Under the pieces are notes generated by a model that had not been told where the DNA came from, did no database searches, and saw only the letters and a program-made list of their open reading frames with translations. A DNA stretch of 64,000 bases. Source: an uncultured Opitutia bacterium (GTDB lineage: Bacteria > Verrucomicrobiota > Verrucomicrobiia > Opitutales > Opitutaceae). A program made the position numbers and the translations under genes. Numbering within the stretch: position 1 is the first letter of the stretch; each line of letters starts with the position of its first letter. Location: assembly GCA_903877135.1 (NCBI GenBank), contig CAIRCN010000038.1, positions 1 through 64,000 of the forward strand. The letters run 5' to 3'. Shown one piece after another: positions 45,682 to 53,910 of the stretch.

Positions 45682-45847
45682 GGAAACGTGAGCCGGACAG
45701 GACAACGCACCGCCACCGCCGAGCGCAAACAGATTCTCAGTCCGTCCGTGACATGGGTCAACCACGGCCGCTATTTCTGCTTGCCGTTGACTTTCGCGTG
45801 CGCGTAGTAGCTCTCCCCCGTTCCGCAGCGGAGCGGATTGGGGTCAG

Positions 45848-45884
45848 GGCGCGGTAGCCAAGTGGTAAGGCCGAGGTCTGCAAA
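45848..45884 (+). repeat. Left attachment site (attL core)
   Basis: These 37 bases are identical to nucleotides 1-37 of tRNA-Cys (53799-53835), from the acceptor start to the end of the anticodon loop. Identity stops exactly where the anticodon 3' stem would begin. It is the displaced original 5' half of the tRNA gene. Confidence 0.92.
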
Positions 45885-45968
45885 GCATTATACAACAGTG
45901 GCTTACGAGTGATAATTCTGGACTAAAAAGGACTCAAAAGGACAGAAAAAGACCCTATTTTCGGCCAA

Positions 45969-45991
45969 GTTGTAGACAAGGGTTGTAGACA
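45969..45991 (+). promoter_or_regulatory. Left arm-type direct repeats
   Basis: GTTGTAGACA occurs at 45969-45978 and 45982-45991, 13 bases apart. The same decamer, with the same spacing and orientation, occurs at the right end (53741-53763). These are probable integrase or excisionase arm-binding sites. Confidence 0.7.
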
Positions 45992-46020
45992 CATTCTTAA
46001 ACCGTATCCTAGTTTTTCCC

Positions 46021-46533
46021 ATGCCTCGGCAGAAGAAAAAACCACTCACTGAAGCTGAAAAGGAACACTTGCGGAGGAATCCCCCGGAGGTTCTGAGTCT
46101 GAGTGAGGCGGCAATTTTCATTGGTTATTCGGAAAAGACCGTGCAGCGGTTGATCGATACCGGATATCTGCGAAAGTTACCTCCGCGGATCATAAGAATC
46201 CCGCTGAAAAACATCCGTGATTTTCTGGACGATCCCGATCGCCACCAATTCATTCTGCTCAGCGAAAAAATGCGGCTTGGGAAGCGCGGCCTCGCGGCCA
46301 TATTGCTGGAGACTCAAGCCATTCCACTCGGTGTGTTCAAAAAGTTTTTACTGGTCCACCGGAAATCAAGTTTGGCTGTTCAGTTGGACAGGTTCTGGCC
46401 GCTGGAAGACTGGCCGTCCAAGACGAGGAAGGCGTCCGATGAGCAGAAAAAGACTTGGCTGCGCCTTCGACTTGCATACGCGGAGGTGGCCAAGATGAAC
46501 AGCCATCAGATTGCAGATTTTTTCTCGAAGTAA
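46021..46533 (+). CDS. Helix-turn-helix protein, possible excisionase/regulator
   Basis: The protein has 170 residues. The N-terminus is basic (MPRQKKKPLTEAEKEHLRR). Residues about 26-75 form a MerR/Xis-type winged helix: EVLSLSEAAIFIGYSEKTVQ, RLIDTGYLRKLPPRIIRI and PLKNIRDFLDD. This is the HTH_17 pattern of excisionases. The C-terminal 90 residues are helical without a recognised domain. It is the first gene inside attL, 30 bases after the arm-type repeats, which could be its own operators. Excisionase function is inferred from domain and position, and the size is larger than typical Xis. Confidence 0.7.
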   Translation: MPRQKKKPLTEAEKEHLRRNPPEVLSLSEAAIFIGYSEKTVQRLIDTGYLRKLPPRIIRIPLKNIRDFLDDPDRHQFILLSEKMRLGKRGLAAILLETQAIPLGVFKKFLLVHRKSSLAVQLDRFWPLEDWPSKTRKASDEQKKTWLRLRLAYAEVAKMNSHQIADFFSK

Positions 46534-46590
46534 TGTCGAGAACATCAGCACCGCCCTCGACCGCACGAGTGTGAGTGTAGCTGGAGTCGC

Positions 46591-46616
46591 AAAAAGAGGG
46601 GGCCCCATGGCCCCCG
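46591..46616 (-). terminator. Intrinsic terminator of the gene at 46620
   Basis: GGGGGCC (46598-46604) pairs with GGCCCCC (46609-46615) around CCAT. On the minus strand the stem is followed by TCTTTTT. It ends the leftward transcript of the gene at 46620-46991. Confidence 0.75.
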
Positions 46617-46619
46617 GCG

Positions 46620-46991
46620 CTAATCCTCATGCGGAAGCATAATAGTCAAAACGGGCTCAGCGGTGTCGCCGGGACCGATGTGGAGTTTGAGGCTTTTGGT
46701 AGCGCGTCCGATCACGACGGTGAAGTGTATCATGGCTTGTCCGGGTGCCGCCCGGCGGATCGCGAGTTTGGCCACGACCGAGATGTCGTGCATGATCCCC
46801 TCGAAGTCCTTTCCGTGCTGTTGGACAGCGTATTCGATAGAGCACCACACGGTGTCCGTGCAAGCAACGGGGGTTATCCAGTGCTCACGGATGGTTTGAA
46901 ACTGGCTGAGATCGACCAAAACCCCGTCGGCGATCGCCTGTGCGCGGGAGTAGGAGTAGATGACTTCTCCGAACGGACTATTCGTTTCCAT
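46620..46991 (-). CDS. DUF6573-like mobile-element protein
   Basis: The protein has 123 residues from the ATG at 46991. The N-terminal motif FGEVIYSYSRAQAIADGVLV followed by DLSQF resembles the small DUF6573 family, common on conjugative and integrative elements and of unknown function. The second half (VCSIEYAVQQHGKDFEGIMH-type helix, then beta strands) fits its length. It ends at a strong terminator. Its start overlaps a 71-codon frame (46978-47193) by 14 bases. The family match is by memory of the motif, so moderate. Confidence 0.65.
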   Translation of the reverse strand: METNSPFGEVIYSYSRAQAIADGVLVDLSQFQTIREHWITPVACTDTVWCSIEYAVQQHGKDFEGIMHDISVVAKLAIRRAAPGQAMIHFTVVIGRATKSLKLHIGPGDTAEPVLTIMLPHED

Positions 46992-47193
46992 AGTTATTGC
47001 CGTTCGGCGGGTTGGTCGTGTGTGCGTTTTGCACCTGATCGACCTCACTGCCGATTGGCGGTTTCGCCACACCCACGAAAGTCAAAGGGGTGCGGAGCGC
47101 CGAGGAGCGGTGAAGGCTCACCCGACGAGGGGGAAGCGCAGGATTCCCCGTGGTGGAGGCCCCGTAGGGCACGACCTTGACCGTGGGTATCAT
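46978..47193 (-). CDS. Possible small protein overlapping a structured region
   Basis: The frame has 71 codons starting ATG at 47193: MIPTVKVVPYGASTTGNPAL and ending NPPNGNNYGNE. It overlaps the next gene's start by 14 bases, as in coupled pairs. However, the DNA also carries two hairpins and a nick-like ATCCTG, so the open frame may only reflect conserved DNA structure. Confidence 0.3.
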   Translation of the reverse strand: MIPTVKVVPYGASTTGNPALPPRRVSLHRSSALRTPLTFVGVAKPPIGSEVDQVQNAHTTNPPNGNNYGNE

Positions 47194-47614
47194 TTATGAA
47201 ACAGCGGCTGGCAGTAGGCTAAAAAAAATCGAGCGCCAGCGAGCATCATCATTCCAGGGTGCGAACCGAGCGGAGACCCTCACGAGGTCGGAGCGAGTGA
47301 GCGGGAGGGCGGGCATCTTGTCGGGACGGCTGGTGCAGCGGGTAAAGCAGTCTTTGAGGAGCCGGAGACGCAGCAAAGTGCAGCCAGAGGAGGCGGCGAC
47401 GCATCGGAGCTGATGACGATGGCGCAACGTCGCGCAGGCGAGCACCGGAGAAGTCTGCGCCGCGGAGCCGACGGCGAACAGTTCCCGCACTTTGACGGAG
47501 GACTCGTCCGGAGGCAAAAGGGCGGGATATGTGAGCCGCGCCGGTGACAAATATGCATTTGAAGAGGGAGGATTTTACTTGCACGTAAATATATCGGGGT
47601 ATATGGCTTGATTC
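46992..47614. other. Non-coding structured stretch inside the element, candidate oriT or RNA
   Basis: About 620 bases lack a convincing gene apart from the possible 71-codon frame. The plus strand is purine-rich from 47230 to 47520. Hairpins include GGGGAA-GCGCAGGA-TTCCCC (47131-47149), GCCC-CGTA-GGGC (47159-47170) and GGCG-GTTT-CGCC (47058-47069). The minus strand carries ATCCTG at 47144-47139, the core shared by RP4-like nick sites, inside the first hairpin. No function can be fixed from sequence. Confidence 0.45.
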
Positions 47615-47944
47615 ATGCCTCGCTTACCTGAAAGTCCTCTTGGTGTTCGCCGTCTTGTCGCTGCAGCTCTGGACAAAGATCAGTATGCCGCAATCCAGGC
47701 GGCACGAATTTCTGGTCATTCGAAGCAACAAATGGTGATCAAAGCGCTCCCGAGCTTAAAGATTGCGGATTTGGAACCACAGGCAGCGTGGGGAACCGGA
47801 AGGAAGTTGTCTCAGTTTAGGCTACCTCCGGAAGTCGCAGAATTGCTCAAGCAGCGATGCGCGGAATGGGGCGCTACGAATGCCCAAGTAGTTTCTGCCT
47901 GCGCAAGAGCTTTGGGGCGAATTCGGCAAAGCAATAATAGTTAA
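47615..47944 (+). CDS. Small protein with ribbon-helix-helix-like C-terminus
   Basis: The protein has 109 residues. The second half reads LSQFRLPPEVAELLKQRCAE followed by WGATNAQVVSACARALGRI, a strand plus two helices as in ribbon-helix-helix DNA-binding proteins. The first half (VRRLVAAALDKDQYAAIQAA) looks like a diverged second copy of the same unit. It may repress element promoters that carry TATAGC palindromes. It is preceded by TATATG at 47600-47605, which would make the transcript nearly leaderless. Only fold-level evidence is available. Confidence 0.55.
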   Translation: MPRLPESPLGVRRLVAAALDKDQYAAIQAARISGHSKQQMVIKALPSLKIADLEPQAAWGTGRKLSQFRLPPEVAELLKQRCAEWGATNAQVVSACARALGRIRQSNNS

Positions 47945-47982
47945 TTTGATACGAAGTCACATAAAATGAGGGCACTTTACTG

Positions 47983-48010
47983 TTGACACATATAGCCGGT
48001 TATGTAACTT
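47983..48010 (+). promoter_or_regulatory. Sigma-70-like promoter with palindrome in the spacer
   Basis: TTGACA (47983-47988), 16 bases, TAACTT (48005-48010). The spacer holds ATAGCCGGTTAT (47992-48003), an imperfect palindrome. It is the same design as the mobC promoter at 52196-52224. Confidence 0.4.
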
Positions 48011-48016
48011 AGATAC

Positions 48017-48083
48017 CATGCTCTTTTTATCGAGTCATTCTGCCAATAATGGCCTCAGCCCTCACGAGAGGGCATATTTTTTT
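48017..48083 (+). ncRNA. Possible short RNA ending in a strong terminator
   Basis: A transcript from the promoter at 47983 would start near 48017 and stop at 48083, giving about 65 nt with no gene. The candidate is defined only by promoter and terminator. Confidence 0.28.
48058..48083 (+). terminator. Intrinsic terminator
   Basis: GCCCTC-ACGA-GAGGGC is a perfect 6-bp stem followed by ATA and seven Ts (48077-48083). It ends transcription entering from the gene at 47615 or from the short-RNA promoter. Confidence 0.8.
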
Positions 48084-48109
48084 AACCCATACATATAGCC
48101 AGCTATAAC
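48081..48109 (+). promoter_or_regulatory. Promoter/operator candidate for the gene at 48136
   Basis: TATAAC (48104-48109) is a good -10 box with a weak TTTAAC -35 at 17 bases. The perfect palindrome TATAGC-CA-GCTATA (48094-48107) overlaps the -10, a natural repressor site. Confidence 0.45.
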
Positions 48110-48135
48110 TATTAGCACAGCAATCTATCCTAGCC

Positions 48136-48795
48136 ATGAAAAATACCATGCCAGCAATCACCCACAACTGCCCACAAAAGGGATATAAATCGATACGGAC
48201 AAACCAGCCGTGCGCCGAAGCTCGGAGAAGGGCCAACCGCCAAGTAAAGTTCCGTCCGCATTGGCCTCAACCGGCGGGGTCACCTGACTACCCCCTAGTC
48301 GCCGAAAACGGACTAATTGAAATCGGGCTCTCCTCAGACGGGCGTCGGGTTTTTGACCGTCCTCGGTCCCATCACAAGCTGGAGCAACGCCTGCTCAGCT
48401 CGGTCCTCAGTCGAGTCAGACTCACAGGTCGGCGGTTTGTCCGTGAGCTGATTGAATTCGGGTCCGAGATCGGGTTGACGACCTGTGTTGCGACATTCCC
48501 CGAGGATCAAATCGTCTATGCCCGGCGTCCGGGCCGCTTCGGGGCGACTAGGTTTGTCGTGAATCGCTGTGCCGAACCGTGCTCAAGCGTCGTGGCGATC
48601 TTCAAGCAGATGGAGGAGCGGCCAGACTGCCACCTCTTGATCACGGCATTCATCGGCGGCCTCCCCGAACCAGAGCCCTGGGACAGGAACGCCACTGCCG
48701 CCTCGCATGACTTCTGGGCGAATCACGCGCTGATCTGGGGATCGTGTGAAGTGCTCCCCGAAACTCAGACCAGTGATTGTCCGTGGAAACTGTAA
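48136..48795 (+). CDS. Element-borne protein of unknown function
   Basis: The protein has 219 residues (MKNTMPAITHNCPQKGYKSI). A folded-looking core runs from about residue 90: GSEIGLTTCVATFPEDQIVY, then ARRPGRFGATRFVVNRCAEP, and a late EPEPWDRNATAASHDFWANH with ALIWG. The last motif (EPWD...FW..HAL) looks like a conserved catalytic or binding patch. The N-terminal 80 residues are basic and probably flexible. I recognise no family. Its 3' half overlaps, on the opposite strand, the end of the frame at 48583-49107. The core motifs argue this strand is the genuine one over 48583-48795. Confidence 0.6.
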   Translation: MKNTMPAITHNCPQKGYKSIRTNQPCAEARRRANRQVKFRPHWPQPAGSPDYPLVAENGLIEIGLSSDGRRVFDRPRSHHKLEQRLLSSVLSRVRLTGRRFVRELIEFGSEIGLTTCVATFPEDQIVYARRPGRFGATRFVVNRCAEPCSSVVAIFKQMEERPDCHLLITAFIGGLPEPEPWDRNATAASHDFWANHALIWGSCEVLPETQTSDCPWKL

Positions 48796-49107
48796 CTCAC
48801 GAAGAAGATCCCCATACCGTTTAACCAGTCCGCTCCAAGAGCTCTTTAGTTCGCCTGCAGACTTCTTGGAAGTGGAGAGTAGATTTTCGACGCCGTGTTG
48901 AAACGCGTGCGTCAGCGGATCGATCACAAAGGGCTTCTTGGCTTTCTGCGAAACAAAGGTCGAAATCGCGGCTGGCATGTGCGCCACCATGTTCGCTCCG
49001 ATCACGAGTTGGTCATAGCCAGGCGCAAACTCATCCAGAAGGTATTTCTGATCCCCAGCGATACCGTAACGCACCCAATGCAGTCCGTGGATTCCAAGAT
49101 TAGCCAT
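48583..49107 (-). CDS. Unknown protein, probably 3'-truncated
   Basis: The frame has 174 codons. The first 105 residues look genuine: MANLGIHGLHWVRYGIAGDQ, LVIGANMVAHMPAAISTFVS and KKPFVIDPLTHAFQHGVENL, suggesting a compact alpha/beta fold. The remainder (after about 48795) lies antisense to the plus-strand gene at 48136 and looks like read-through. The true C-terminus was therefore probably lost when the two segments were joined. It overlaps the preceding nuclease-like gene by eight bases, so it is the last cistron of the leftward operon. No family is recognised. Confidence 0.5.
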   Translation of the reverse strand: MANLGIHGLHWVRYGIAGDQKYLLDEFAPGYDQLVIGANMVAHMPAAISTFVSQKAKKPFVIDPLTHAFQHGVENLLSTSKKSAGELKSSWSGLVKRYGDLLRELQFPRTITGLSFGEHFTRSPDQRVIRPEVMRGGSGVPVPGLWFGEAADECRDQEVAVWPLLHLLEDRHDA

Positions 49108-49492
49108 GGAGACGACGACTGGACGTTAAGAGAGTGCTGAGTGAATCCCGCGCAAATGGAGAAGTGATGGTTGACGGCGAGGCATCGACCGCCGTCTGAA
49201 AAGGCCACTCTGCACCTTCGACAAAGATAAACAGCCCCACGCCTGATTGTTTGGCGGCGAGTTTTAGTTCGGCAGAATTGTTCTCCCTCGGAAGGCAGAT
49301 ATAAGAGAAGTCGCTACCGATCTGATGGTCGCGCGCCTGGCCCAGCGCCCGTCGCCAATCGCGCAGTTTGAATTCAACGGAAATGAGACTGCCATCCTGC
49401 AGGAAGACCAGATCAATACTTCGGCCAAGGAGCGGAGCCTCTCGGCGGGACAAAATCCCCATCGCCTTGAGCCGTTTGTGCGCATCCAGCAC
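49100..49492 (-). CDS. PD-(D/E)XK nuclease-like protein, probably frameshifted at its start
   Basis: The frame has 130 codons from a GTG at 49492. A restriction-nuclease-type core is visible: GRSIDLVFLQDGSLISVEFK with Asp and the E-x-K pair (EFK), then ALGQARDHQIGSDFSYICLP. This pattern (D...ExK, then an A-x2-QA helix) is common to Mrr-like and related PD-(D/E)XK proteins. Upstream the same frame continues to a TAG near 49541 with family-like residues (ETVAKARKRKRSENAY). A better start, ATGTCGCTGAAT at 49554, follows the previous gene's stop at once but in another frame. One missing G near 49540 would join them as MSLNR-ETVAKARKR. It is thus either a damaged gene or a sequencing error. Confidence 0.6.
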   Translation of the reverse strand: MLDAHKRLKAMGILSRREAPLLGRSIDLVFLQDGSLISVEFKLRDWRRALGQARDHQIGSDFSYICLPRENNSAELKLAAKQSGVGLFIFVEGAEWPFQTAVDASPSTITSPFARDSLSTLLTSSRRLHG

Positions 49493-49554
49493 ATAGGCAT
49501 TTTCAGAACGCTTCCGCTTGCGCGCCTTTGCGACAGTTTCCTATTCAGCGACAT

Positions 49555-50391
49555 TCAGTTCTGGGCGGCAGAGTGAGCCAAGCCCAACCGTTCAGCGGCC
49601 GAGCCCACGAGGAATTTCAGCAGGTCCGAATACGGTCGGTCCATTGCGCGAATCGCGTGCATGAAACTGGTGTGAGCGGTGAGATGCGGCTTGCACGTCA
49701 CTTCCATCACTTTCGCTTCGCCCGCTGCTGACACACGGAAGTCGATCCGAGCGGGACCGGTGAAGCCCAATCCGGCATAGGCTCGTTGCGCGATATCCTT
49801 TATCCGTGTCGCGGTTTCACCGTTCTCGTCTGCGAAATCATAGAACGAATACTGCCTGATGACGTCAGCGCTCAGGCCGGCGGCAAAGTGGTTGGGCTCA
49901 CGGCTCGCTAGAATCCTTTTCAGAAACGCCATCCGGTCAGCCGTGGCGATCTCGACCAGTGGGGTGACGATATATGCCATATCAGACAATGCGAACCAAA
50001 ATGCCTTCCTCCTCCATCCCGCAGCCAGTAAGTCGTCCCACTGTGCCAGGATTAGCCTGGACGGCGTTTGAAAGCCAACGAACCGTGCTGGGATGTCGAG
50101 CAGTAGGTCCGGTATGAACTGCGTGGAAACTGGGAGATCGGGTGCACTGCGTATGTCGGTGATGCTCGGGATGGCGATCGGCAAACCAGACGGCTCAACG
50201 GGGAGCCCTACTTGGAGGGTAAGAGCACGCCGCGATAGGAAATCAGGAAGGAGCTGCAGCAGTGATTCTCCGCGCACGACGATGTTGCCCAGTGTGGTGA
50301 CGACGAGCATGCCACGGACGTTCCACTCAACCCGGATAATTTCAGCGTCGGGGATGACCATGCTGCCGATGATATGGTGGACGGGTTTCAT
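49555..50391 (-). CDS. ATP-grasp-like protein (D-Ala-D-Ala-ligase-like C-terminal half)
   Basis: The protein has 278 residues. The C-terminal 110 read like the second ATP-grasp subdomain of D-Ala-D-Ala ligases: QYSFYDFADENGETATRIKD, AYAGLGFTGPARIDFRVSAA, then VMEVTCKPHLTAHTSF and YSDLLKFLVGSAAERLG. The D in ARIDF and E in VMEV match the magnesium ligands. The third ligand Asn (E-x-N) is replaced, here E-V-T. The N-terminal half does not show the usual ATP-binding loop, so activity is uncertain. Its start overlaps the membrane-protein gene by four bases and its stop abuts the nuclease gene. A nucleotide-dependent ligase within element cargo is plausible but unproven. Confidence 0.6.
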   Translation of the reverse strand: MKPVHHIIGSMVIPDAEIIRVEWNVRGMLVVTTLGNIVVRGESLLQLLPDFLSRRALTLQVGLPVEPSGLPIAIPSITDIRSAPDLPVSTQFIPDLLLDIPARFVGFQTPSRLILAQWDDLLAAGWRRKAFWFALSDMAYIVTPLVEIATADRMAFLKRILASREPNHFAAGLSADVIRQYSFYDFADENGETATRIKDIAQRAYAGLGFTGPARIDFRVSAAGEAKVMEVTCKPHLTAHTSFMHAIRAMDRPYSDLLKFLVGSAAERLGLAHSAAQN

Positions 50392-50753
50392 TTGAAGATG
50401 GCAATGATCGCCACTGCGCCAACGCCCACGAGCAGCGTGAGGATCACGATAAAATAGAAGCAGAGCCCGGTAAGCTGGCGGTCGATCTGAGCGGTGATAG
50501 ACTCTAGGTGCTTATTGATGACCGTCCCAGTCGCCTGATGCCGCGCAGCTATGCTGGCGTCAATTACGGCAATTTGCTCGGTGATTTTACGCTGAATTTC
50601 CTCACGGACGAGCTTGTCGAGAGTGGCCGTTGCCTGGGCGTTAGCAGTAATCTGCTGCTTAAGTTCGCCGAGTAGAACAGTTAATTTAGCGATGAGCATG
50701 GCCGCCTGTTTGTCGGGGTCATCGCCGGGAGTTTGGGTTGGGTTTGTATTCAT
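50388..50753 (-). CDS. Coiled-coil membrane protein
   Basis: The protein has 121 residues. A hydrophilic N-terminus is followed by a coiled coil (residues about 20-92: LIAKLTVLLGELKQQITANA; EIQRKITEQIAVIDASIAAR) and one strong C-terminal membrane helix (CFYFIVILTLLVGVGAVAII then AIFK). It is tail-anchored with the bulk in the cytoplasm. It overlaps the relaxase stop and the ATP-grasp start by four bases each (ATGA). Related layouts occur near mobilization genes (MobB-like), but I cannot assign it. Confidence 0.7.
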   Translation of the reverse strand: MNTNPTQTPGDDPDKQAAMLIAKLTVLLGELKQQITANAQATATLDKLVREEIQRKITEQIAVIDASIAARHQATGTVINKHLESITAQIDRQLTGLCFYFIVILTLLVGVGAVAIIAIFK

Positions 50754-51871
50754 ATGGGAAGTCGATTTCGGGGCCTTGTCGTGGGTCTGCGTCGGCGCAT
50801 GTGGAGGCGAATACCGGCGCCACCGCCTCCACCACCGCCATCGCCGCCACTTAGGTTGGCGAGAGCAAAGAGTATGAGAACAAGCAGGGATGTGCCGCGG
50901 TGGATTATTTCATCTCGTCTATCTTGGCCTGAATCAGGTCGAGGATACGCTTCTGCTCCGCCAGTGCCTTCGCATCCGCCGTCCGAAGGGAGTTGGCCAG
51001 CTCGGTCAGCAACATATGGAGTTGCTGCAACTGAGGCGTGAGTTGTCCGGCAATCTGCCAGGCGATTTCTGCCGCTAATTCCTTTTGCCAAGGAGGGAGC
51101 TGTGCTTGTTGGGTCAATTCTTGAGTTGTCATGGGAAAATCGTGAACGGACTGATTTGAGCGGCATGCCGATCGATGAGCCGCTGAACGCTTGGCCGTCT
51201 AAGCCGAAGCTGATGCCGACAATCACGCCATCTTTGACCCGATTGCGCATGGCGATCCCTTGCTGTGCCAATAACGCTTCAAATTCGGTTTCGCTGCTGG
51301 CCTGGGCGCATGCCGCCAACACAAATTCGCGAACCAGAATCTTGGCCGGTATTGGCGTCTTGGCTTTGCCCTCGGCAAACAGTCTCTGTGCTCGCTCGAT
51401 CTCCTCTTTGCCAACGGAGGGGAGGTCTGAAACGGCACGCGTGCGGGTCAGGCCGTAGCGTATTTCCTGTGCATTCGCCGTGGCCCTGAGTTTGACCCTG
51501 TCTTGTCGTTGCGCCCAAGTGCGGCCATCGGATAAGACGGCGTTGACCACGATATCGGCGTGGTCGTGGGCACGGTCCCGATGAAGCACGGCGACATATT
51601 GGTCGAAACCCAGAGCTTGGGCATCCTCCTTTATGCAGGCTGACCATTGTTCGTCAGAGAGGTGCTCACCGGGTGCCAACGATTTGACGTAATGATAAAC
51701 TCGTTCCTTCACGCGCCAATTACGTGAGGCCTGTAGCTCGAACTCGGTGGCCCAATGCGTCGGGTCCAGCGTCTTCAGTGTTGTGCATAGGACGTGGGGC
51801 TGCTTGTTAGCCATGAGCGCATAGGCAAGGACACCACGGAAACAATTACCCTTTGTGATCCTGGTGATCAT
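50750..51871 (-). CDS. MOB_P-type relaxase
   Basis: The protein has 373 residues. It nicks one strand at oriT and pilots it during conjugative mobilization. The N-terminus MITRITKGNCFRGVLAYALM holds a candidate catalytic Tyr17. Motif II-like YHYVKSLAPGEHLSDEQW is at 59-76. Motif III is LHRDRAHDHADIVVN with His97, Asp99, His102, His104 and Asn110. The position that is normally a third metal His is Asp106. The relaxase domain ends near residue 235 (GQAFSGSSIGMPLKSVRSRF). The remaining 138 residues overlap the small gene at 50905-51132 in another frame and include a hydrophobic LLVLILFALANLSGG and a glycine run. It overlaps MobC by four bases. Confidence 0.85.
   Translation of the reverse strand: MITRITKGNCFRGVLAYALMANKQPHVLCTTLKTLDPTHWATEFELQASRNWRVKERVYHYVKSLAPGEHLSDEQWSACIKEDAQALGFDQYVAVLHRDRAHDHADIVVNAVLSDGRTWAQRQDRVKLRATANAQEIRYGLTRTRAVSDLPSVGKEEIERAQRLFAEGKAKTPIPAKILVREFVLAACAQASSETEFEALLAQQGIAMRNRVKDGVIVGISFGLDGQAFSGSSIGMPLKSVRSRFSHDNSRIDPTSTAPSLAKGISGRNRLADCRTTHASVAATPYVADRAGQLPSDGGCEGTGGAEAYPRPDSGQDRRDEIIHRGTSLLVLILFALANLSGGDGGGGGGGAGIRLHMRRRRPTTRPRNRLPI
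50905..51132 (-). CDS. Small helical protein nested inside the relaxase gene
   Basis: The protein has 75 residues, starting MTTQELTQQAQLPPWQKELA. It is amphipathic and coiled-coil-prone throughout (QLQQLHMLLTELANSLRTAD; ALAEQKRILDLIQAKIDEMK). The gene lies wholly within the relaxase frame, offset by one register. Composition is more protein-like here than the relaxase tail it overlaps. IncQ plasmids nest mobB in mobA in a comparable way. It may be a mobilization accessory protein. Confidence 0.6.
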   Translation of the reverse strand: MTTQELTQQAQLPPWQKELAAEIAWQIAGQLTPQLQQLHMLLTELANSLRTADAKALAEQKRILDLIQAKIDEMK

Positions 51872-52188
51872 CGCACCCCTCCGATCAGCGCAGCTCGCAA
51901 TGCGGCTAGTTCCGATGTGAATGCAGCAAGTGACACCTCGTCGACGCTGCCGGGCAATGCCTTGAGAACGGCGGACTCAAGATTAACCAGCCTAGTCCAT
52001 CCATCCTGGTTCAAACGGGGGACACAGGTGCCCTTCAAACGGCTACGGAGGAGGGCGGTGCGAACAAAGGTGCCGACGGGCACACCGGCTGCATCGGCCC
52101 GTGATTTGAGGCGGGCAGCCTCTGGGGCCGTTAGCTTCGTGCTGACGGCTGTTGTCCTATAGAGATTGCCTGTATTCGATGCTGGCAC
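51868..52188 (-). CDS. mobC: MobC-like relaxosome accessory protein
   Basis: The product has 106 residues from the GTG at 52188. A longer frame from TTG at 52209 would begin inside the promoter -10 box, so the GTG is preferred. The transcript would then be almost leaderless. The core VSTKLTAPEAARLKSRADAA followed by GVPVGTFVRTALL is the strand-helix-helix of MobC/ribbon-helix-helix relaxosome proteins, which bind and open oriT. The rest is a helical tail (LVNLESAVLKALPGSVDEVS). It overlaps the relaxase start by four bases. Confidence 0.75.
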   Translation of the reverse strand: MPASNTGNLYRTTAVSTKLTAPEAARLKSRADAAGVPVGTFVRTALLRSRLKGTCVPRLNQDGWTRLVNLESAVLKALPGSVDEVSLAAFTSELAALRAALIGGVR

Positions 52189-52191
52189 ATA

Positions 52192-52224
52192 CAGGATTAT
52201 ATAGCGCAAGAAGCGCTATGTCAA
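52192..52224 (-). promoter_or_regulatory. Consensus promoter of the mob operon with operator, and candidate oriT
   Basis: On the minus strand this is TTGACA (52224-52219), exactly 17 bases, TATAAT (52201-52196): a perfect sigma-70 consensus. The spacer is a palindrome, ATAGCGC-TTCTT-GCGCTAT. Three bases after it comes ATCCTG (52197-52192), the core of RP4/MOB_P nick sites, which sit just beyond an inverted repeat in the same way. Promoter, repressor site and oriT could therefore share 33 bases. Confidence 0.65.
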
Positions 52225-52596
52225 GGTAATGTAGTGAATTAAAGCGAGAATACCTCGCTCTATCTTGCTATGTATAGAGATTGATGGCTCAGTATAGCGA
52301 TTTCTTGATCTAGGTATACTTGCAGGGAAACTTATGGATATACATTCGCACCTGCTGACGGTGGATAGTGGGCGCCGCTGCATGAGCTGCGTGAGCCTGA
52401 GTCAGCCCGATAACTAGCCAATTTTCCAAAACGATTTGTATACAGCTCCCTTGCTGTAATACCTGTAACTAGTAAAGGCGCGGGTGCCGTTCCAGTGCCG
52501 TTGGAATTTGTAACCAGAGAAGTTGGATTTCATGGTGCTGTATTAGGGGTTATTGGATCGTGATGCTCAAGGGGCAGCCGGTCAGACTCGGTCAGA
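52225..52596. other. Intergenic stretch between integrase and mob operon
   Basis: There is no supported gene. An inverted repeat AGCGAG-AATAC-CTCGCT (52243-52259) has the same 6-5-6 geometry as the palindrome in the mob promoter. Further TATAG(A/C)GATT repeats occur near 52274 and 52293. They may be extra binding sites for MobC or a repressor. Confidence 0.5.
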
Positions 52597-53751
52597 CTAG
52601 AATTTCACAAGTGATGCTTGTTGTTTCGCGTGCTCATCACGCAGATGTCCGTAAGTTCTCAGAGCGAGCATTCCTCCATCTGCGTGACCGAGCCAACGAG
52701 ATAAGGTTGGGATCTGTACTCCGCTTTCTATGCAAATTGTCGCGAAGTAGTGCCGTAGATCATGATGTGTTAAGGCGGGTACGCCGACTTTCAGACAGGC
52801 GCGTTTAAGAGAAATCAAAGCCTTTGCCACCCGCGCAACTTGGTCCGTTGCTGCCTTTGTGGCCCGCCGTGCCGCGATCTTCTGCAGTAATGACTCCAGT
52901 GGTGCAATCATCGGAATGGTTCGTCGACTTGTAGCTGATTTCGTCCCTCGAATGTCGAGTTCTTTGAGGTCAAAATGGACGTCCCCCCAAGTAATTGCAG
53001 CGGCTTCAGCCTTCCGAGCTCCAGAGTATGCCATCAAACGGCAGAAATCAGCGATTTCCAGCCCCCAGTGTCCCTTGCCACTATTCATCTCAATTTCTGA
53101 GAGAACCGCACGGAAATCATCCAGGGATGGCAAGCGCAGGCGTTTCGGGGCGACTTGGTGCTTCAGGCCTTTTGTCCGTACGGGATTCTGGTGAATGGCG
53201 CCAGCTTCGACGCCAATTGCAAAAATAGACTTAAGCCCGTCAATCGCCTTATTGAAGCTGCTTTGGCTGTTTCCGGTCCAGATTTTGGACGCCCCTTTGG
53301 GCTTGAACTGGGTGCCTCTTGACCTGAAACGAGCGGCCCAAGATTGAACCTCGGAGGTGGTCACATCTTGCGGTCGGCGTGGCATCAACTCTGGCCAAGT
53401 CTTAAGGATTTTCTTTAGGCCGATATGGCGGGCCTTCTTGCTGCTTTCAGCAATCGGTAAACCGGCAATTTGAATTCGATAAAGTTCGACCAGTTGGGCA
53501 ACCGTGCCCGTGCCGGACAGGGTGGCGGCTTGTGCTGAGCGCTTTAGGTCCTGCTCGCTGAGCCAGACCCTTTGACGTAGTTTGGCCGTTGAAAGCACGG
53601 TTGTCCGGTGACTGTGCCAAAGGGGCTTGCCATTGACTTGGGCCCGCCCGTAATACTTTCCGCTTCGGTTGTCGCGGAGCAAACCCGGTTCTCTGGTGGT
53701 GCTCCATCGCGTGTTCTTTTCTTGAGTTGACTGCTTCACGGTTGTAGACAT
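52597..53751 (-). CDS. Tyrosine recombinase (integrase)
   Basis: The protein has 384 residues. The catalytic set is complete: Arg246 in YSGARKAEAAAITW, Lys271 in GTKSATSRR, His330 and Arg333 in THHDLRHYFAT, His356 in WLGHADGG, and nucleophile Tyr367 in LRTYGHL. An N-terminal arm-binding region (residues 1-80) and a SAM-like core-binding domain (about 85-215) precede it. It lies 47 bases from tRNA-Cys and is transcribed away from it, leftward. It carries out insertion and excision between the 37-bp repeats. It seems intact. Confidence 0.95.
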   Translation of the reverse strand: MSTTVKQSTQEKNTRWSTTREPGLLRDNRSGKYYGRAQVNGKPLWHSHRTTVLSTAKLRQRVWLSEQDLKRSAQAATLSGTGTVAQLVELYRIQIAGLPIAESSKKARHIGLKKILKTWPELMPRRPQDVTTSEVQSWAARFRSRGTQFKPKGASKIWTGNSQSSFNKAIDGLKSIFAIGVEAGAIHQNPVRTKGLKHQVAPKRLRLPSLDDFRAVLSEIEMNSGKGHWGLEIADFCRLMAYSGARKAEAAAITWGDVHFDLKELDIRGTKSATSRRTIPMIAPLESLLQKIAARRATKAATDQVARVAKALISLKRACLKVGVPALTHHDLRHYFATICIESGVQIPTLSRWLGHADGGMLALRTYGHLRDEHAKQQASLVKF

Positions 53752-53763
53752 TGGTTATAGACA
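53741..53763 (+). promoter_or_regulatory. Right arm-type direct repeats
   Basis: GTTGTAGACA (53741-53750) and GTTATAGACA (53754-53763), 13 bases apart, repeat the left pair (45969-45991) in sequence, spacing and orientation. They overlap the integrase start region, so integrase may repress itself by binding them. Confidence 0.7.
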
Positions 53764-53798
53764 ATCTGAAGCATACGAGGTGATCCTCCCTCGTCAAT

Positions 53799-53873
53799 GG
53801 CGCGGTAGCCAAGTGGTAAGGCCGAGGTCTGCAAAACCTCTATGCGTCGGTTCAATTCCGACCCGCGCCTCCA
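53799..53873 (+). tRNA. tRNA-Cys (GCA), element attachment site
   Basis: This is an intact 75-nt gene including CCA. The acceptor GGCGCGG pairs with CCGCGCC, the anticodon stem GAGGT/ACCTC has loop CTGCAAA (GCA), the T-loop is TTCAATT, discriminator is T and CCA lies at 53871-53873. Nucleotides 1-37 (53799-53835) are duplicated at 45848-45884. The 5' half here is probably element-derived, so the gene's upstream region now belongs to the element. Confidence 0.95.
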
Positions 53874-53910
53874 ATTTCCCGGGACTTTCCGGCCAAGCCG
53901 GCGCCTCGGC

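Follow-up and report, generated by a model that had tools for sequence, protein, structure and literature searches.

The window, that is, the whole stretch of 64,000 nucleotides analysed here, comes from an uncultured Opitutia bacterium and contains an integrated mobilizable element of 7.95 kb, in which an integrase, attachment-site (att) repeats, and a relaxase are all present (Table 1). Leftward of the relaxase gene, the element carries the four open reading frames (ORFs) considered in this study, at 50388-50753 (gene 1), 49555-50391 (gene 2), 49100-49540 (gene 3, an open frame), and 48583-49107 (gene 4). The sequence-only reading of this DNA proposed the four as one candidate cargo system composed of a membrane coiled coil, an ATP-grasp-like protein, a PD-(D/E)XK nuclease, and a fourth protein. 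The layout it described is correct: genes 1 and 2 share a 4-base overlap (50388-50391), the TGA of gene 2 (49555-49557) touches an ATG (49552-49554), and genes 3 and 4 overlap by 8 bases (49100-49107). The four-gene system, however, is largely refuted already. What is left in genes 3 and 4 derives from a real and widespread module of a nuclease and a TIM-barrel-like protein, usually found with a Ser/Thr kinase. The stretch as a whole is, in our opinion, probably a mosaic on a mobilizable element, the module being defence-associated, with a nuclease effector controlled by its partners.

Table 1. Features of the mobilizable element and the grounds on which each was assigned
Feature	Coordinates	Strand	Basis
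Integrated mobilizable element	45848..53835	.	37-bp direct repeat 45848-45884 / 53799-53835, 5' half of tRNA-Cys
Conserved convergent protein, no assigned function	48136..48795	+	Persicobacter 37.5%; PHROG 23674
Gene 4 ORF tail, probably non-coding	48583..48807	-	Mostly antisense to + strand ORF; homology ends 48808
Gene 4, real part: N-terminal ~100 residues of ~464-aa TIM-barrel-like protein	48808..49107	-	L029:6401-7795; tblastn 49095-48808
Gene 3: PD-(D/E)XK nuclease frame (predicted)	49100..49540	-	ATG 49552-49554 in other frame; AF2, Foldseek, VIA
Gene 2: chimeric ORF	49555..50391	-	Mob-like N-terminal part ~49880-50391; ATP-grasp end 49582-49854
Gene 1: mob-operon coiled-coil-like protein, C-terminal transmembrane helix	50388..50753	-	Place and topology as in L013, L014
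MobA/VirD2-type relaxase	50750..51871	-	PF03432 2.6e-23; 33-34% identity to sister relaxases
NikA/MobC-like relaxosome protein	51868..52209	-	PF21983 1.5e-5, 25.4 bits, slightly below cut-off 27
Tyrosine integrase	52597..53751	-	PF00589 1.9e-15

Structure prediction identifies gene 3 with confidence as a putative nuclease of the PD-(D/E)XK fold, as had been proposed. The AF2 model, translated from 49510, has a predicted local distance difference test score (pLDDT) of 92.4 and contains the alpha-beta-beta-beta-alpha-beta core of the fold. Its best match is 3dnx (Foldseek E 5.8e-7; VIA Z 13.2, rmsd 3.2 over 126), followed by the Pyrococcus repair endonuclease 2vld (Z 10.2) and EndoMS 5gke (Z 10.1), with Can2 and restriction enzymes among further solved matches. 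The acidic residue and the E-x-K motif of the superfamily are both present: the window reads SIDLVF and then VEFK, and the E and K are invariant in 11 aligned sequences. A profile search of PDB sequences with the nuclease gave no match, and no direct relative of gene 3 was found in IMG/VR. A relative is the nuclease of a locus in a Limisphaerales genome bin (L029), the two being 45% identical (E 5.9e-32), which is more than chance. Where this relative starts, the window frame has no ATG; the ATG touching the gene 2 stop lies in another frame, and the first in-frame ATG, GTG, or TTG codons (GTG 49492, ATG 49462) would cut the first helix of the fold. For this reason, a break in the reading frame of gene 3, close to its start, is most likely, in agreement with the damaged start noted earlier.

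Gene 4 is likewise broken. Its residues 5-100 are 66% identical over 96 residues (E 9e-44) to the 464-aa protein of L029; the homology stops at 48808, so that about 100 of 464 residues are kept and no full-length barrel is encoded in the window. The suspicion that the last gene was damaged and the copy decaying was therefore well founded, and the copy is most likely inactive. The convergent ORF on the opposite strand stops 12 bases from the end of the gene 4 homology. It is a conserved gene in its own right, similar to a Persicobacter protein over residues 62-219 (2e-20), with the similarity running through the overlap; it matches its PHROG at 3.9e-20 and has relatives on two Persicobacter plasmids, and no Pfam match was obtained. 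The C-terminal half of this protein looks like a candidate small toxin-type domain. Gene 4 itself found no relatives in plasmids and only itself in 288 genomes of the phylum, and the 464-aa protein matched only the window in 318 phylum genomes and nothing in IMG/VR.

The two fragments are recognizable as a unit from their order elsewhere. L029 carries a Panacea-like gene, the nuclease, the 464-aa barrel protein directly after it, and a SIR2-like gene; the window nuclease adjoins the barrel remnant in the same order. On pSI-1 (L042), a mobilizable Arthrobacter plasmid, the order downstream of a relaxase is a Panacea-like gene, a gene for a membrane protein (judged by eye), one for a nuclease of 148 residues, and one for a barrel protein of 409 residues. 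The 409-aa and 464-aa proteins are 24% identical (2e-17). The pSI-1 nuclease has a weak pairwise match to that of the window (E 0.16), and its match to the nuclease hidden Markov model (HMM) is not independent, because the sequence was included in that HMM. Most other relatives of the nuclease adjoin barrel proteins of about 400 residues and Ser/Thr kinases, with fused forms in Kocuria and Priestia. Among 19 distinct loci outside the window that were found through the nuclease (L015, L018, and L024-L040, after removal of the duplicates L008 and L021-L023 and of six window-derived loci), the fetched stretch contains a barrel in 16 and a kinase in 15. The module HMMs were trained on most of the counted sequences; for this reason, recovery by a leave-out HMM is the stricter test, and it retrieves the barrels of L018, L027, and L030 at 2.3e-19, 2.6e-17, and 1.9e-25. 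Thus, the expectation that the genes would co-occur in other genomes, near defence genes, holds for genes 3 and 4 but not for the four together.

The module is spread over Verrucomicrobiota, Actinomycetota, Bacteroidota, Pseudomonadota, Bacillota, and one haloarchaeon. Searched against plasmids, the L042 and L035 barrels returned one record each, that for L042 being its own, and the L040 barrel had no match in phage records. Four of the nuclease loci have no kinase (L029, L025, L037, and L030, the record of which ends inside the barrel), nor has L042, which was found through its barrel; in the window, no HMM match to a Ser/Thr kinase was obtained between 45001 and 54500. The barrels of the window type (L029, L042) and of the kinase type align with each other in hhalign at 72% (E 3.3e-5).

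Ten neighbouring proteins from six module loci chosen by eye all match PADLOC models at 1e-10 or better. These are type I restriction-modification proteins (L024, L025), a type IIG/DrmMI-like protein (L028), PglZ and BrxL of BREX (L037), PDC-S05 (L034), and a helicase (L039). The SIR2-like gene of L029 matches at 3.5e-6, and its Pfam score of 22.1 bits is below the cut-off of 24.5. In L029, the Panacea-like gene directly precedes the nuclease, and in L042 it is the second gene upstream of it; the two proteins match PADLOC PDC-M19A at 4.1e-9 and 1.9e-10, and their Pfam Panacea scores (16.6 and 16.3) are below the cut-off of 25.7. A tblastn search with the L029 protein (E 0.05) found no Panacea-like gene in the window between 45000 and 54500.

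In L037 (365-6063), the nuclease relative stands beside PglZ and BrxL with neither barrel nor kinase in the fetched stretch, possibly a use of the nuclease on its own.

Several results weigh against the reading of the module as a single unit that includes the window copy. Three of the 19 nuclease loci have no barrel, namely L025, L037, and L032, although the record of the last breaks off shortly past the nuclease, where a kinase begins. The link between the two barrel types is distant: the kinase-type barrel HMM alone scores L029 at only 0.11 and does not list L042, and single-sequence comparisons of the types gave 40% and 0.2%. Gene 4 had no profile match to kinase-type barrels and is linked to them through L029 only. 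Moreover, the six loci with defence neighbours, having been picked by eye, are no unbiased sample, and two of them (L025, L037) are among those lacking a barrel.

The fold of the barrel offers a lead to its activity, in our opinion only a lead. The model of the L029 barrel is poor (pLDDT 49.8) and consists of eight strands alternating with helices. For this low-confidence model, tRNA-guanine transglycosylase (TGT) ranks first (Foldseek E 1.7e-3; VIA Z 13.9), tied with unrelated TIM barrels such as isopropylmalate synthase (13.7). A CxCxxC motif resembling the zinc site of TGT occurs in 2 of 17 barrels, one of the 17 sequences being partial (L029 and L027 have the motif), and the Priestia barrel touches the model of ArcS (archaeosine synthase) over the CxCxxC region at an E-value, 0.043, that is not significant. 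Homology to TGT at the level of sequence was sought and not found: PF01702 has no match in the four barrels scanned, and four barrel alignments compared by hhalign with 7 TGTs (those of 29 TGT loci that passed a motif filter) scored under 1%. A barrel profile search of PDB sequences gave matches at E 0.19 or worse only. A TGT-like barrel is suggested rather than demonstrated.

Beyond the kinase, no curated model in Pfam, NCBIfam, or PADLOC 2.0.0 matched the representatives scanned, and PHROGs, searched with two barrels and the window ORFs, had no model for the parts of the module. Keyword searches of the open PMC subset, with preprints excluded, gave no description of a nuclease-barrel-kinase module among the matches listed. 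The module is apparently undescribed, which is less than establishing its absence from print.

Gene 1 is part of the mob operon, an assignment made from its position and topology. Among 372 genomes of the order, a related relaxase (E 1e-8) was found in the genome of the window and in two others (L013, L014). In both others, the gene downstream of the relaxase overlaps it by 4 bases and encodes a protein that looks by eye like a coiled coil and has a transmembrane helix at its C-terminus; a second 4-base overlap leads into the gene of a third protein, 227 or 237 residues long. Relaxase, transmembrane protein, and third ORF are arranged in this way in the window too. The membrane segment claimed for gene 1 is confirmed as a strong one (C-terminal, hydropathy 3.0 across 19 residues), but the protein sits where the sister mob operons have theirs rather than in a cargo system. 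Its sequence similarity to the sister transmembrane proteins is weak, the score being reached by 444 of 1000 shuffles for L013 and 44 of 1000 for L014; the two sister proteins resemble each other (3 of 1000). The same-genus sister L014 (5676-7252) carries different genes, for proteins of 331 and 193 residues, beside its mob operon. For this reason, it appears that this type of element swaps the cargo next to its third mob gene.

Gene 2 is best read as a mob gene fused to the 3' end of an ATP-grasp gene. It is not a complete ATP-grasp domain: the Pfam D-Ala-D-Ala ligase match covers residues 190-262 only, corresponding to profile positions 131-203 of 204. With full-length ATP-grasps of 359 residues from Methylobacterium pMRAD01 and a Paenibacillus plasmid, only the C-terminal 75-84 residues match, at 49854-49582. 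Accordingly, the last 95 or so residues of gene 2 match only the C-terminus of 359-aa Ddl-like ATP-grasps. A full-length ATP-grasp broken by frameshifts was considered and rejected, since tblastn with the two full-length relatives gave nothing upstream of 49854. Residues 1 to ~170 resemble the third mob-operon protein of the sister elements, with moderate strength. The alignment with the L013 protein is best over residues 4 to ~134, with an E-value of 6e-5 that becomes 0.057 without composition adjustment and in a larger protein set, and the score of residues 1-175 is reached by 2 of 1000 shuffles against L013 and 6 of 1000 against L014. Together with that loss of significance, two controls argue the other way: the third proteins of L013 and L014, compared with one another, do no better than shuffles (259 of 1000), and in the comparison with L013 the score of the ATP-grasp end is reached by 43 of 1000 shuffles. 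Direct relatives of gene 2 were absent from the genome contig collection, and plasmids yielded two partial, C-terminal matches only.

Three other explanations of these frames have to be weighed against a mosaic. That the four genes form a real cargo system, in which a divergent ligase acts with the nuclease, is very unlikely. Its uninterrupted frames and tight junctions, and the full-length relatives of the gene 2 C-terminus beside an AAA/STAND-type ATPase on two plasmids, would fit such a system, and the contact of the gene 2 stop with an ATG means that an ATP-grasp gene may once have preceded the nuclease. We reject it on the partial ATP-grasp match, which is the last quarter only, on the mob-like N-terminus in front of it, and on the transmembrane coiled coil found at the same place in sister mob operons. 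Moreover, no ATP-grasp relative occurs in 20 other module loci (220 kb; tblastn at E 0.01, ATP-grasp-family HMM at E 1), while the HMM did match its positive controls, both full-length copies and the window. Given the contact between the ATP-grasp stop and the ATG in front of the nuclease, there may have been an ancestral operon of ATP-grasp, nuclease, and barrel, but none has been seen. It is somewhat less improbable, yet still unlikely, that the chimeric ORF encodes a functional product, in which a mob accessory protein gained the C-terminal lobe of an ATP-grasp for binding. The two parts are joined in frame, with 278 codons open and the same third-position GC on both sides (0.67, 0.67). Against this, no second example was seen: of 56 other genomes, 5 had weak matches (best 2.2e-6), none of them reaching beyond the C-terminal part, the contig collection gave none, and the neighbouring genes 3 and 4 are broken. 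Least credible of all is that the organism has intact genes and that the frame break and the chimera arose in sequencing or assembly. The assembly is indeed a draft of 87 contigs, but a point error explains neither the end of the gene 4 homology near residue 100 of 464, next to a convergent gene that is itself conserved, nor the fusion of two unrelated proteins.

A further alternative concerns the intact relatives. The kinase-free form nearest the window might be toxin-antitoxin-like, with the Panacea-like antitoxin neutralizing a toxic nuclease or barrel. In its favour are the position of the Panacea-like gene upstream of the nuclease in L029 and L042, the match of both proteins to PDC-M19A, and the action of PanA antitoxins on multiple toxin families, as stated in PMC10440598. 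With Pfam scores below the cut-off, two loci only, and no Panacea-like match in the window between 45000 and 54500, we consider it doubtful, although less so than the explanations above.

Returning to the mosaic, the mob operon (NikA-like protein, relaxase, transmembrane coiled coil, and third mob protein) would run into a foreign piece of about 1 kb that is truncated at both ends and consists of the ATP-grasp 3' end, the nuclease without its start frame, and the 5' end of the TIM-barrel-like gene. The data directly show the pieces, their truncations, the nuclease fold, the co-occurrence, and the defence genes beside some copies; we infer that the intact modules serve in defence and that barrel and kinase control the nuclease. 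In such a module, the nuclease would act as the effector that cuts DNA, and the barrel, which may be a base-modifying enzyme of the TGT kind or a sensor that evolved from such an enzyme, would restrain or direct it. The Ser/Thr kinase would be the usual switch, a role that may fall to the Panacea-like protein in the form nearest the window, which has no kinase. Going further is tentative: the intact relatives may constitute a widespread defence system not yet described, where a Ser/Thr kinase controls a PD-(D/E)XK nuclease and its partner, a TGT-like barrel serving as base exchanger or sensor of modified nucleic acid, with a kinase-free Panacea/SIR2-like branch to which the broken copy in the window would belong. 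The window copy is debris, rated here as decay, and its value is that of a pointer to a recurring module that is worth testing. Should this module protect against phage, immunity would gain a system linked to a kinase and, perhaps, a further role for the TGT fold. The case also serves as a warning that ORFs packed closely in one direction on a mobile element can be made up of truncated genes joined into a mosaic.

The tRNA-Cys gene (53799-53873, + strand) has the 37-bp repeat as its 5' half, and the intact tRNA is kept at the right end of the element. An empty site occurs in a same-genus genome (G001, L075), where the left flank runs directly into the complete tRNA-Cys: window 45780-45884 corresponds to L075 1501-1608, and window 53799-53881 to L075 1572-1655. 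Synteny with this genome is lost more than about 70 bases left of the site, and the aspS match lies on a different contig there. Third-position GC is 0.57-0.67 for the four ORFs, the relaxase, and the + strand ORF, and 0.82 for neighbouring aspS. Library scans of the element proteins recognized no conjugation genes, no search having been aimed at them. The element also encodes a DUF6573 protein (46620-47072, - strand; 6.1e-15) and, near it, an excisionase-like helix-turn-helix protein (46021-46533; PHROG 66). A 75-aa coiled-coil-like ORF (50905-51132, - strand) is nested in another frame within the 3' part of the relaxase gene and is reminiscent of the nested mob genes of small plasmids.

Four known or recurring arrangements invite comparison. 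The Ddl-like ATP-grasp paired with an AAA/STAND-type ATPase is shared with the window through a piece 29-39% identical to the C-termini of the pMRAD01 and Paenibacillus proteins, but the window holds only the last quarter of the ATP-grasp, and tblastn with the pMRAD01 protein found no such ATPase between 45000 and 54500. In the pair itself (L016:4128-7659 and L017:4206-7734, from Methylobacterium and Paenibacillus plasmids), the 359-aa ATP-grasp is convergent with an ATPase of 816 or 818 residues, each near a tyrosine recombinase, and the L016 ATP-grasp has no match in IMG/VR; this recurring pair looks like a separate candidate system. The PanAT toxin-antitoxin network has in common with L029 and L042 the Panacea-like gene, matched under the Pfam cut-off, but these loci carry extra genes, namely the barrel and a SIR2-like or membrane protein. 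The Ser/Thr-kinase defence proteins PD-T4-6 and MAD6 of PADLOC are matched by the module kinases (Kocuria, 4.9e-45; L038, 9.6e-37), whereas the tested nucleases and free-standing barrels matched no PADLOC model, and no kinase was found in the window between 45001 and 54500. A TGT belongs to another, BREX-related system described in PMC12839542. As to Dpd, the 7-deazaguanine DNA modification and restriction system, and TGT enzymes, the barrel model is of low confidence, other TIM barrels tie with TGT, and there is no sequence link to it; TGT nevertheless ranks first for the L029 barrel model, and a barrel beside a nuclease would fit a mark-and-cut logic.

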